Positions 32,735 through 36,422 of a stretch of DNA of 64,000 nt are shown piece by piece; positions within the stretch are counted from its first letter, which is position 1; each line of letters opens with the position of its first letter. The notes under the pieces were generated by a model, which was given only the letters and a program-made list of their open reading frames with translations, did not search any database and was not told the origin of the DNA. Where the stretch lies: assembly GCF_016629665.1 (NCBI RefSeq), contig NZ_JAEPRQ010000003.1, positions 124,001 through 188,000 on the forward strand. The letters are read 5' to 3'. The DNA comes from Paracoccus caeni. GTDB taxonomy: Bacteria > Pseudomonadota > Alphaproteobacteria > Rhodobacterales > Rhodobacteraceae. The translations under genes were made by a program, and so were the position numbers.

Positions 32735-32818
32735 GGGCGACGTGCTGCAAGGTGCGGCAGCGGACTGTAACTCCGCCGGGGAGACCCATGCCTGGTTCGA
32801 TTCCAGGGTCGCCCACCA
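32735..32818 (+). tRNA. tRNA-Tyr (anticodon GTA)
   Basis: Acceptor strands GGGCGAC (32735-32741) and GTCGCCC (32808-32814) pair fully, followed by A and an encoded CCA (to 32818). The D stem is GCTG/CGGC, the anticodon stem GCGGA/TCCGC around loop CTGTAAC (anticodon GTA), then a long variable arm as expected for tRNA-Tyr, and T arm CCTGG-TTCGATT-CCAGG. It is the likely insertion landmark for the remnant island that begins 64 bp downstream. Confidence 0.97.
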
Positions 32819-32881
32819 TTTTCCCCTATATCAAGTGCTTAGATGCTCAAAACCCTTGGTGCGCCATACAGGTGAGCCATA

Positions 32882-32971
32882 ATGCTGCATCTTACGGCCT
32901 ATCTGAGTCGTTCACGGCACGGGGTTTTTACTTCCGTCGGCCTATCCCGGCTCAGCTTCATCCTGACCGGA
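32882..32971 (+). pseudogene. Tyrosine-recombinase (integrase) N-terminal fragment
   Basis: ATG at 32882 opens MLHLTAYLSRSRHG; after a frameshift in the GGGGTTTTT run (32921-32929) the frame continues FYFRRPIPAQLHPDRKQ. Joined, this matches the N-terminal DUF6538-type segment common to phage/island integrases (SRHGV-Y-FR-x-P motif). The frame then runs directly into IS3 orfA sequence at about 32971, so the rest of the integrase is gone. Position just after tRNA-Tyr supports an island integrase. Identification is from pattern memory. Confidence 0.65.
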
Positions 32972-33297
32972 AGCAAAGGAGTTCAAGCGGGATGCGTTCC
33001 GCCTTCCGCTCACCAGCGGCCTGACACGGGGTAGGTTGCGTCTGAATTTAGAGTTGGTCTTTCGACACCCGGCAAGCGGATACGGTCGATTTCCGATGAG
33101 ACGAAGGTGCCTGACCGGCACGCCGATCTTCCGCACGAGAACGAACGGCTGCGCAAAGAGGACCGGGTTCTCAGGGACTTGCAAGGATCAGGAAACAGTG
33201 CTGGGGACTGTTTTCCCGCAGCAAGAGGGAGGTATTAAGAAAGGCGGCTCAGTTTTTTGCGGTTCATGGAGGGCTGGAACGCTATCGGTCCGATTGA
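32971..33297 (+). pseudogene. IS3-family orfA remnant
   Basis: Pieces in alternate frames read KEFKRDAFRLPLTSGLT, then STLGKWIRSISDETKVP and ENERLRKEDRVLR, and finally EVLRKAAQFFAVHGGLE with stop at 33295-33297. These follow the order of IS3 orfA (helix-turn-helix, then leucine-zipper). A palindrome-bearing insert at 33178-33225 interrupts the zipper and shifts the frame. At least two frame changes are needed to read through. Confidence 0.75.
33178..33225. repeat. Palindromic insert in IS3 orfA
   Basis: GGAAACAGT (33191-33199) pairs with ACTGTTTTCC (33207-33216, one bulged T), inside outer arms CTTGC (33178-33182) and GCAAG (33221-33225). It separates two halves of the orfA zipper. The core matches the palindrome in the IS5 transposase at 35446-35470. 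Confidence 0.6.
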
Positions 33298-33309
33298 CAG
33301 AGCGACACC

Positions 33310-34166
33310 GTGAAGTTTCAGTTTATTGCCAGCTATCGGGGCAGTCTGGCGCACAGCTATTTATGTCGGCTGATGGGCTTTTAAGAGCGAGGGTTCCATG
33401 CGTGGCGGCACCGGCCTCCATCGCATCGTCAGCGGCGCGACGTGGTGCTCCTTTCCCATATTCGGGACCAGCATCGGTTGAGTCTGTACAGCTACGGCAG
33501 ACCACGCATGGCCGAGGAGCTGAACGAATTGGGCCTGCGGGTCGGGCAGCGCCGCGCTGGCGGTTTGATGCGCCAGAACGTAGGCAAATCATCCGCAGCC
33601 GGAATTTCAGGTGCATGACGGACAGCAATCACAGCTTCAACATCGGGCCGAATCTGCTGAAGCAGGAATTTTCGGCGAGCGGGCCAAACCAGAAGTGGGC
33701 GGGTGAAATCACCTATGTCTGGACGAGGGGAGGTTGGGTCTATCTGGCCGTCATCATCGACCCGTTCTCAAGGCGCTTCATTGGCTGGGCCATCAGCAAC
33801 CGCATGAAGCAGGATCAGGCGATCAGGGCGTCGAACATGGCGATCGCGCTGCGCAGCCCGCCATCTGGCTGCATTCACCACACAGATCGCGGCTCGCAAT
33901 ATTGCGCCCACGATTACCAGAAAGTCCTGCGCAGCTTTTGGTTCGTGGTGTCGATGAGTGGCAAGGGAAGCCGCTACGATAACTCAGCCGTCAAAAGCTT
34001 TTTCAAATCACTGAAAGCCGAGTTGGTCCGGCGGCGCGACTGGCACGCCCGCCGAGAGGTCGATATCGCCCTTTTCGAATACGCCAACGGCTTCTACAAT
34101 CCGCGGCGCAGGCATTCAGCTTTGGGGTGGAAATCGCCCGTGGCCTTCGAACAGAAGGCCGCCTAA
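33310..34166 (+). pseudogene. IS3-family orfB (DDE integrase) pseudogene
   Basis: The frame from GTG 33310 reads VKFQFIASYRGSLAHSYLCR but stops at TAA 33382-33384 after LMGF; it continues in frame (GFHAWRHRPPSHRQRRDVV, YGRPRMAEELNELGLRVG) until a frameshift near 33580. From there an open frame runs to 34166 with the core integrase domain: KWAGEITYVWT, CIHHTDRGSQY, SGKGSRYDNSAV and SFFKSLKAELV. The second Asp and the Glu of the DDE triad are present, but the first Asp is Glu (AGE instead of GD), an additional inactivating change. Confidence 0.85.
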
Positions 34167-34222
34167 CATGAGCACCCGACCGGAACGAAACCGGTGCAGG
34201 TCCACGTGCCGAAAGGAGCAAT

Positions 34223-34381
34223 GTGAGGGTCTCATGGCGGGATCTTCCCGGTAACTCCATAATTCTTGAATATATTCTCTGGCAGTATAATCCAGTCACG
34301 AAAAGAGATGAATGGGTCTATACCGGCAGCGTTGATGATGGAACGTCGATGGATGATCTGGATAATAGCCCGAGAAAGTAG
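34223..34381 (+). CDS. Small ORF or truncated C-terminus beside the IS3 element
   Basis: 52 aa from GTG 34223, with AGGAG four bases upstream. It includes LPGNSIILEYILWQYNP, DEWVYTGSVDDGTSMDD and ends LDNSPRK. The same frame stays open back to the IS right end at 34204, so it could also be the tail of a longer gene cut by the IS. Base composition changes to AT-rich from here. It is not recognised. The 274-aa ORF starts 6 bp after its stop, so the two are probably translated together. Confidence 0.5.
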   Translation: MRVSWRDLPGNSIILEYILWQYNPVTKRDEWVYTGSVDDGTSMDDLDNSPRK

Positions 34382-34387
34382 GGTAGA

Positions 34388-35212
34388 GTGGAGCGAAACA
34401 GAGAGCTTACTGCGGCGCATCTGATCGAGCGGGACCGAATGCGTCATATGAAAAGTGACGACGACGTTGTTCTTGCAATTAATAGGTTCGATCATTGGAT
34501 AAAAAAACAGAATTTGAACTATGCTGACGCAGTGTCACAGATGCTTCATTTCATGCGGAATGGGATCCAGCAGGGTATGCAGATTCGCGATGCTCTGAAT
34601 GATAGACTTGGAATATTGATCGATGAAATGATCGAAGATGCTGAAAAAGTTGATTCGAGAATTTTATACGCGGTGCGATACGTGGCAGAAAAATATCGCA
34701 CGGATATTTTTCATGCATCAACGGAGCCCGAATTTATATATATGGGAAGGCTTATTGGCGCGACCGATTGGATATTTGGCGATGGAAAATATGCAATCGG
34801 CGTTGTTGCGGTTTATAACACAATATTTAATGAGGCATTTTCTAACAAGGTGAGTTATGCTTTTTCTCTGAGTAATGGGCTGGATATCAGTGAGCGGGAA
34901 GGAAATTCAGGGAGAGAGCTTTTCGATGTTGCCGTGATGAAAAATTATTACAATATATCCTATCACAATGACAATATGTCGGGTCGGATGGCCTGGGCGG
35001 AAGGTGAAGACATAGCTCTTGGGATATATAAGTTCATTCAGAGCCCGGAATCGAGGGGTTTGCTTTGTTCGCTCTTACCGCCAGCCGGGCTGCTTGAGGT
35101 CGATTGGTCTAAGCAGCAATGGGTTTTCGAGGCGCGGAATCGACAATGGTTAAATTACAAGCACCCTAGGGACCTTATCAGCTATTTTGACCAAATGGCT
35201 GCGACCAGTTAG
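34388..35212 (+). CDS. AT-rich island gene of unknown function (274 aa)
   Basis: GTG start at 34388. Not recognised. The protein appears soluble, with no signal peptide or membrane segment. The N-terminal third is charged and helical (ERNRELTAAHLIERDRMR, DAVSQMLHFMRNGIQQGMQ, DRLGILIDEMIEDAEKVD). The central part has hydrophobic, aromatic strands (EFIYMGRLIGATDWIFGDG, AIGVVAVYNTIFNEAF), and the C-terminus has WSKQQWVFEARNRQW. Codons such as ATA, TTA, AAT and GAT are frequent, unlike the flanking GC-rich genes. It lies between IS3 and IS5 remnants with a 52-residue ORF just upstream, typical of laterally acquired cargo. Confidence 0.75.
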   Translation: MERNRELTAAHLIERDRMRHMKSDDDVVLAINRFDHWIKKQNLNYADAVSQMLHFMRNGIQQGMQIRDALNDRLGILIDEMIEDAEKVDSRILYAVRYVAEKYRTDIFHASTEPEFIYMGRLIGATDWIFGDGKYAIGVVAVYNTIFNEAFSNKVSYAFSLSNGLDISEREGNSGRELFDVAVMKNYYNISYHNDNMSGRMAWAEGEDIALGIYKFIQSPESRGLLCSLLPPAGLLEVDWSKQQWVFEARNRQWLNYKHPRDLISYFDQMAATS

Positions 35213-35244
35213 GATGACCTATATGGGGTTCTGTCTTGTCTAGG

Positions 35245-36056
35245 TCATTTTGACAAATGTCGGCGCCCTAGCCTGATGCAGGCGATGTCTATGAAGCAGA
35301 GGAAGCTGTCTGTGGTTTCGTTGTAACCTGTGGCGAGCCGACGGCTGTTCTTCAACTTGTTGAAGCAACGCTCGACCATGTTGCGCAAAGTGTAGATGAC
35401 CTTGCGAACCTTTCGGTTCTTGCGCATCGGTAGTGAGAAGGGTCTGAAAACAGTCCGGAGGACTGTTTTCCCGACGAACGGTAGGGCGTTACGGTTTTCG
35501 ATATCTTCCCGAATTTTGTCGGTATCATAACCTCTGTCCGCCACCAGCACGGCGGGCTGTAGCAGGTTGTCGGCCATCACCAGATCATAGCCGATATAAT
35601 CGGAATCCTGCTCCGGCGTGATCACGGTCGACATCGGGAGGCCAGCGCCGTTGACGCGGAGATGGATCTTGGTCGTAAAGCCACCTCGCGAACGGCCAAG
35701 GGTCTCTTTCTGAGGCCCCCATTTGCGCCCGCCGCATGATAATGGGCGCGTATTGCGGTGTTGTCGAGCATCTGTAGCGTGTCGGGCGCGATCCCCGCAT
35801 AGTTCAGCGCGTCCAGAATGTCCTCCCACAGCCCCGCCAATTTCCAACGACGGAACTGGCGGTAGACCGATGACCACTTACCGAACTCCTCGGGCAGATC
35901 GCGCCAAGCGGCACCAGTCCGTGCGATCCAGAAAATTCCTTCTATAACAATATGATGGTTGGATGGCCTGCGCCTGTTTGGATGCCTGACAGCACGCATG
36001 GAGGCTTCGAAGAGGACCCACTCTTCGTCGGATATCAACTTGCGTGCCAAGCTCAT
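35245..36056 (-). CDS. IS5-family transposase, two frames joined by -1 frameshift
   Basis: Frame 1 (start 36056) encodes the N-terminal DUF4096-type part: ISDEEWVLFEASM, FWIARTGAAWRDLP, YRQFRRWKLAGLWEDIL and LDNTAIRAHYHAAGA. Frame 2 continues KWGPQKETLGRSRGGFTTKIH, LVADRGYDTDKIRE and NMVERCFNKLKNSRRLATGY (the DDE region). A GGGGG run at 35716-35720 (complement of CCCCC) is the likely slippage site. Between LP and LPMRKNRK the protein carries a 17-residue in-frame intrusion (35428-35484) with a palindromic DNA core. Activity is doubtful because of this insertion. Confidence 0.82.
35428..35484. repeat. In-frame palindromic insertion inside the IS5 transposase gene
   Basis: A 6-bp direct repeat CGGTAG (35428-35433 and 35479-35484) flanks 45 bp whose core is a perfect palindrome: GAAAACAGTCC (35446-35456), GGA, GGACTGTTTTC (35460-35470). 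The period is 51 bp, exactly 17 codons, so the frame is kept. Without it the protein would read ALPMRKNRK, as in related transposases. Confidence 0.7.
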
Positions 36057-36125
36057 CTCCCACGTGGAGATGAACGTGAATCACAAGTCCACGGACAAGG
36101 AAATCCATTCTGTCAACACAACCTA

Positions 36126-36422
36126 ATGACCGATGTATCAGCGGTTTACGCCTATTCGCGGGCAGAATGCGTGATCTTGTGACAGCATTTTTCACAGGTT
36201 ACCGCACTTCTGCTTCGAAATTGTTCAGCGATGTTGGCAGTCAGAAGCTTTTCGCGCGAGTCGATATGGCTTGCGCGAAAAATTTTGCCTTTTCTGGAAA
36301 TCAACTCCCGTATAGATGGATGGAAGTTATGCGCTAACATTCAAAAATAGTTAATAAACGGGATGTTTTGCGTCATGTTAACGATTTGATCCAAGCGCCA
36401 GTGCGCGAGTAGGTTTCGTCTT
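36126..36422. other. AT-richer intergenic stretch between IS5 and the Hint gene
   Basis: About 300 bp. I see no gene. The composition is closer to the island cargo than to the chromosome up to about 36400 (for example AAAAATAGTTAATAAACGG at 36345-36362), so the island's right edge may lie here. A promoter for the Hint gene is expected in 36330-36410; no clear direct repeat of the tRNA 3' end was found. Confidence 0.5.

Follow-up and report, generated by a model that had tools for sequence, protein, structure and literature searches.

The window, a stretch of 64,000 nucleotides from Paracoccus caeni (contig NZ_JAEPRQ010000003.1, positions 124,001 to 188,000), contains an IS5-family insertion sequence with a small hairpin inside its transposase gene, and a second, diverged hairpin copy in an IS3-like transposase gene. 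The features are as follows:

35241-36125, minus strand: IS5-family insertion sequence related to ISPko5 (extent by alignment to relatives)
35622-36056, minus strand: first of the two overlapping reading frames of the IS5 transposase
35245-35877, minus strand: second reading frame of the IS5 transposase, open across the element (Pfam DDE_Tnp_1)
35434-35478, minus strand: 45-bp hairpin element, from sequence and covariance model, with its ends set from empty homologues
35446-35470: core palindrome GAAAACAGTCC-GGA-GGACTGTTTTC, with perfect 11-bp arms and a 3-nt loop
35428-35433: first CGGTAG; in minus-strand order, bases +1 and +2 after the element, then host ACCG (empty relatives)
35479-35484: second CGGTAG; in minus-strand order, the host Leu-Pro codons ahead of the element (empty relatives)
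33178-33225, minus strand: second, diverged element copy in the IS3-like transposase gene (39.3 bits with the covariance model; flank matches rve)

The host gene at 35245-35877 (minus strand) matches the DDE transposase domain DDE_Tnp_1 with an E-value of 2.9e-11, in agreement with the first-pass annotation of this DNA, which had named it an IS5 transposase. Two ISPko5 relatives have a single annotated CDS each, of 782 and 776 bases, neither divisible by three. On the minus strand the element reads TTCGTCGG, 11-bp arm, NNN, 11-bp arm, 4 nt, CCTTCTCA, and the covariance model matches it at 35432-35480 with 70.4 bits. The two CGGTAG repeats and the perfect 11-bp-arm palindrome of the first-pass annotation are all present at the positions listed above, and the core palindrome was absent from 100 shuffles of the window, even with up to 3 mismatches. 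That annotation had missed the weaker second copy in the window and two further genome copies in IS5-type genes. The IS3-like gene with the second copy (33036-34166) appears, by reading, to be frameshifted in its first part; only its second part reads as a normal integrase core. An intrinsic terminator was considered as an identity for the window element and rejected, as a consensus terminator scan of 32800-36400 does not report it.

The ends of the element were set by comparison with homologues that lack it. The window reads CTACCG-[45 bp]-CT-ACCGATG where an empty relative of its IS5 reads CTGCCC-ATGAT-ACCGATG. Segment-free homologues occur on a plasmid of Paracoccus sp. MA (L253; CTGCCC-ATG-ATACCG), in ISPko5 of pKON1 (L316; CTGCCC-ATG-ATCCCC) and in P. 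yeei (L252; CTGTCG-ATG-ATCCCG). The left CTACCG corresponds to the host Leu-Pro codons and the right CTACCG to the host ACCG behind two changed bases. The window flanks therefore do not overlap in the empty relatives, and the net gain is 42 bp and not 51. A 51-bp insertion flanked by a 6-bp duplication of CGGTAG had been proposed; judged by the empty homologues, 45 bp replaced a few bases and the supposed duplication is mostly host codons. The proposed 17-codon in-frame insert holds insofar as the frame is open through the segment, but the gain is 14 codons. Other filled copies of the window site have CTCCTG (L270), CTCCCG (L422) or CTACCC (L362) on the right, which is evidence against a target duplication. 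When the IS was aligned by megablast to plasmid relatives, the best four alignments stopped at query positions 638-641, with the element starting at 643, and a fifth plasmid record carries the element and aligns straight across it.

Usable empty relatives, with flanks 65-100% alike, were available for 24 of the 42 distinct sites in our main sample (see below). The short target duplications that had been predicted at further copies were found at none of these 24 sites; a few target bases were replaced, with a net gain of 41-45 bp. In six filled/empty pairings the flanks seemed to overlap by 3 to 12 bases, and these pairings were set aside (L157 and L177 with L032, -10 each; L185 with L161, -12; L246 with L310 and with L210, -3 each; L248 with L270, -7). 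L157, L185, L246 and L248 have other, non-overlapping subjects, and L177 has none. Among the subjects, L161 by reading retains just the left arm and a portion of the stem and may have arisen by deletion, and L210, also by reading, has its own element. Movement was not observed directly for any copy, the filled and empty sequences being related at 65-100% in their flanks and not two strains of one species.

The unit comprises 45 bp: an 11-bp stem closed by a 3-nt loop and set off by a 4-nt bulge from paired outer arms. It is kept by this shape, with compensating changes in the stems. In a covariation test on 41 rows chosen from 92, with the structure drawn from the same rows, 43 cells were altered on both sides of a pair (12.8 in shuffles, sd 2.7) and 10 pairs were altered on both sides (5.3 in shuffles); slid structures, used as a control, gave 7 to 11 double-changed cells. 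The outer arms, on the strand reading TGAGGAGG..., contain two places where GA stands opposite GA, in 56 and 64 of 96 rows, respectively. Watson-Crick pairs take their place in 17 and 9 rows, and neither arrangement is seen in 23 rows at each. The bases immediately outside the 45 bp (-1/+1) vary between sites and are complementary at 28 of 42, where 12.3 were expected and none of 10,000 permutations reached 28. An exact-core scan that allowed gaps of 1-12 found a gap of 3 at all 21 places. When the arms were sought around palindromic cores of any sequence, 21-29 nt long, 1.96 Mb of DNA partly selected by the common core yielded 85 units, with a 25-nt core in 81 and a 4-nt bulge in 77. Up to three of the 22 stem letters deviate from the common core in 74 of these 81 units, and at least four in the other seven. 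Three loci (L348, L164 and L198) combine the same arms with clearly different stems (GCGGCCCTTCC, GGAAACCCTCC and GCAATCGATTC, respectively).

The first-pass annotation had proposed a small palindromic element that inserts into genes, to be given up if no other genomic copies existed. Many copies turned up at different sites, coding genes among them, and homologous sites that lack the element exist. The own genome contains four full copies of this arm type as well as weaker relatives (covariance model):

C14:159432: the window element at 35434-35478
C11:723840: in an IS5 gene
C17:83496: in an IS5 gene, same site, decayed by reading
C14:157178: the window copy at 33178-33225, IS3-like

The exact core with a gap of 1-12 occurs in 13 of 198 family genomes (the 21 places mentioned above, some of which are intergenic copies with other arms), and the arm-and-core pattern in 22 of 256, with no match to the reversed-pattern control. 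The core plus CGGG, with three mismatches, was found in 54 of 101 genus genomes (control 0), a count that includes intergenic copies with other arms. Among plasmid records, 44 matched, 33 of them over at least 80% of the query; half of the 44 (22) belong to Paracoccus, and other hosts include Phaeobacter, Tritonibacter, Rhodovulum, Leisingera, Cereibacter and Neorhizobium. Four Moraxella plasmid records share only 22 matching bases. Viral contigs gave no exact match to one 31-letter pattern, and phage records gave six weak partial matches. In Rfam, the window copy scored no higher than 16.2 bits against a gathering score of 137, and at seven loci no match overlapped a copy. The papers whose text contains GGACTGTTTTC deal, as listed, with human, plant and Chlamydia subjects and not with a repeat of this kind; among the open-library papers listed, no title or abstract opening described one from Paracoccus or from transposase genes.

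Related hairpins were encountered alongside. The bare core AAAACAGTCC-N3-GGACTGTTTT is, among the matches listed (L026-L144), frequent in Ruminococcus and other Clostridia and in some Treponema; these copies have other arms, and several have longer similar surroundings. The same core with yet other arms (CTCGCT...CGGGCGCTCG or similar), in many cases followed by GGATATTT, occurs at L013, L022, L130, L178, L183, L188 and L212-L219; with up to three mismatches, such repeats give 41 matches in genome G199 and 15 forward matches in G250, not all of this type. The own genome also has a second, probably intergenic hairpin repeat. Its 3-nt loop is the same, its stems end in TGTCC, its arms are CGGTCNG/CGGACC or similar, and a similar stretch of about 40 bp precedes it (L364-L366, L369 and L370, at G000:C11:466918, C18:23802, C11:334243, C13:246865 and C11:1358866).

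The main sample consists of 84 instances of this arm type, excluding loci outside Rhodobacterales and Brucella (mostly Clostridia) and flanks shorter than 60 bases; four hybrid instances from G199 (L227-L230) were dropped. The remaining 80 instances represent 42 distinct sites, 39 of which lie in transposase genes, 36 by protein match. Protein matches place 27 sites in transposases of the IS3, IS5, IS21, IS66, IS110 and IS256 types (the matches for sites 32 and 33 reach no better than about 1e-4). Nine more come from Pfam (site 9 weakly, E 0.0065). Sites 18, 28 and 38 were assigned by DNA homology to assigned sites or by reading, sites 8 and 21 are intergenic by reading, and site 39 has no assignment. 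The same tblastn procedure scored 55 of 600 random windows from IS-rich plasmid stretches, which are themselves the source of part of the tblastn reference proteins, against 27 of the 42 sites; on intergenic copies with other arms it scored one of 11. A second sample from other genera adds IS630 and further IS3 and IS5 sites, one locus beside lpxB (L331) that looks intergenic, and some loci without assignment. The identified gene interiors, in a tally that leaves aside seven unassigned loci (L234, L328, L337, L354, L372, L388 and L436), belong only to recombinases of mobile elements, namely transposases and one serine recombinase, which does not support the preference for ordinary coding genes expected from the earlier analogy with rickettsial elements. 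Since sampling began from the AACAGTCC core, the transposase share is valid for the AACAGTCC subfamily. At several sites the element coincides with or adjoins the codons of conserved transposase motifs (e.g., WAMD-F and VE-TFF), which we take to be catalytic.

An arms-only pattern with a free core gave 117 matches in 101 genomes (19 with the reversed pattern), 23 of them in G245. At least eight of the 11 core pairs are formed in 54 of the 63 distinct matches examined, and six or fewer in the other nine. The sequence GATATTT follows within 40 bp downstream in 23 of the 54 matches with a palindromic core, whereas all 80 main-sample instances lack it. In G245, 20 stretches cover 21 of the 23 matches; a transposase match is missing for every one of these 21, and 20 carry the GATATTT mark. 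Many of these copies lie close to the end of a long stop-free, unannotated frame, in some cases on either side; some of the frames may occur by chance in GC-rich DNA. The other 31 of the 54 matches comprise 21 in transposases by protein or DNA match, an IS630-like locus (L393), an IS3 locus by reading (L424), a copy in a serine recombinase (L440), two at gene ends (L383, argC-like, and L426, glyS-like, where the frame reaches the element and ends on a TGA at its edge), two that look intergenic (L402 and L432) and three without assignment (L372, L388 and L436). The family has two compartments, one near gene ends and one inside transposase genes. An exclusive home in transposases is ruled out for the whole family by the intergenic copies from this arms-based scan and was kept for the AACAGTCC subfamily.

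The window segment probably belongs to a family of REP-like, non-autonomous hairpin repeats that is found in Paracoccus and related alphaproteobacteria and also colonizes transposase genes. A few target bases are replaced at its sites. A separate enzyme would mobilize the element in trans in the form of a folded single strand, and once inside an IS the element would presumably be carried along by that IS. Frame and orientation decide between 14-15 residues added in frame, as in the window, and a stop or frameshift in the transposase. We favor single-strand, REP-like movement because of the constraint on the fold, the sharp ends and the lack of a duplication. A Y1 transposase (PF01797) of the RAYT type was found in none of eight genomes, the own genome included, while five of 14 control genomes were positive.

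A more specialized role is conceivable, and we put it forward tentatively. The hairpin may be specialized in the recombinase genes of other mobile elements, moving as a folded single strand by means of a non-RAYT enzyme and replacing a few target bases, often at conserved motif codons. It could then act as a hyperparasite or brake of insertion sequences that damps or rides its host IS.

It is rather unlikely that the hairpin is an ordinary inherited part of certain IS lineages that damps transposase expression and has no movement of its own. The same sites are occupied in diverged IS relatives (eight instances of site 0 and six each of sites 1, 2 and 3), a recurrence that fits inheritance as well as repeated insertion. 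Element-bearing IS copies also remain multicopy: one IS5-type copy with the element is present in G255 at nine places with 99-100% identity, and a second element-carrying IS has at least five copies there with different outer flanks. Such ISs still multiply, and may move in trans or with a shortened protein. Against inheritance, the same unit recurs with the same ends at 42 sites, which span several unrelated IS families, and in intergenic DNA as well, and IS relatives without the element exist at 24 sites. For the window site itself, the suspicion of an ordinary family feature is borne out in part by a few diverged relatives with the segment at the same site (L270, L362 and L422) and countered by its absence from ISPko5, Paracoccus sp. 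MA and P. yeei.

We consider it improbable that the hairpin is a Rickettsia-type palindromic element, that is, a coding insert kept in frame by selection so that the host proteins stay open. The frames stay open in the window copy and in the IS5 copy at G000:C11:723840; L010, L242, L249 and L204 also read through (for L010, L242 and L204 the frames scored weakly and the assignment rests on reading), and some arm variants (L243 and L024) are without the stop that the consensus would give. However, the net length is a multiple of three at only 12 of 24 sites, or 14 if two mixed-member sites are included, with eight expected by chance, so that the multiples-of-three rule of the first-pass annotation is not supported. 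In-frame copies with a TGA exist (L077, L154, L064, L123 and L246), others shift the frame, and the identified interiors belong to mobile-element recombinases and not to metabolic genes. Frames were assigned from ungapped flanks, which is uncertain where the two best scores are close, and only net lengths and clear readings were used. Separately, translational bypassing was rejected as a general rule: by reading, the element has matched codons on its two sides at the window copy (CTA CCG) and at site 0 (GTC), and not at L154 or L249.

It is very improbable that the element is a miniaturized DDE transposon bounded by terminal inverted repeats; this would account for the inverted-repeat ends and the many copies, but is mostly contradicted by the lack of a target duplication at 24 sites, and the loci searched gave no right half and three weak left-half matches. 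Independent terminator-like hairpins that converged on a similar sequence deserve hardly any credence: the bare core palindrome with other arms is also frequent in Clostridia assemblies among the matches listed, and intergenic copies lie near gene ends, but arms, bulge and length go together though stems differ, and precise insertion into coding sequence with empty relatives contradicts convergence.

Small palindromic repeats without a known mover, such as the CGTC-tagged REPs, are an open problem. In this family the ends are sharp, empty and filled sites can be paired in many cases, the structural constraint has been measured and the bias toward transposase genes is strong. This opens two testable questions, namely what moves hairpin repeats where RAYT is absent and whether repeats act as brakes of insertion sequences. 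Broken transposases in these bacteria may often be due to one and the same repeat.

Compared with known systems, a REP-like repeat in the wide sense describes the intergenic compartment only (21 of 21 G245 copies without a transposase match). GTAG-tagged REPs, which are associated with RAYTs, are described in PMC3733652 as short scattered palindromes, mostly downstream of genes or between convergent genes, some of which supply the stop codon of the preceding gene. The argC-like (L383) and glyS-like (L426) frames likewise stop on the TGA at the element edge. Unlike GTAG-tagged REPs, the Paracoccus-type consensus has no GTAG at its ends, has paired outer arms and a bulge, shows no Y1 transposase in the eight genomes searched and is strongly present inside transposase genes. 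The CGTC-tagged REPs, including Rickettsia RPE-4 and RPE-6, are in the account of PMC3733652 typical of alphaproteobacteria, sometimes located inside genes and without a known dedicated transposase; they have an unpaired CGTC end, 8-9-bp stems that begin with AT, and 4-5-nt loops. In contrast, the CGTC of the major form here lies in an arm and pairs or covaries with the other arm, and the stem is 11 bp with a 3-nt loop (81 of 85 units).

Rickettsial palindromic elements (RPEs), as presented in PMC10969869, are about 150 bp long and are mostly in-frame inserts in unrelated metabolic genes. The hairpin shares with them the palindromic insertion within protein genes, in some cases in frame, but it is 45 bp long, and instead of unrelated cellular genes it occupies transposase genes at 39 of 42 sites, its net length is a multiple of three at roughly half of the sites examined (12 of 24), and several in-frame copies contain a TGA. 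The target duplication of DDE-type MITEs is found at none of 24 sites. In the stem-loop-replacing transposition of IS1272-type elements, as outlined in PMC5678879, there is also no target duplication and target bases are lost, but there a whole IS replaces a stem-loop, whereas here a bare stem-loop replaces a few bases. The element fails the tested defining features of RPEs, CGTC-tagged REPs, GTAG-tagged REPs and DDE-type MITEs; it works like REPs and sits inside genes like RPEs.
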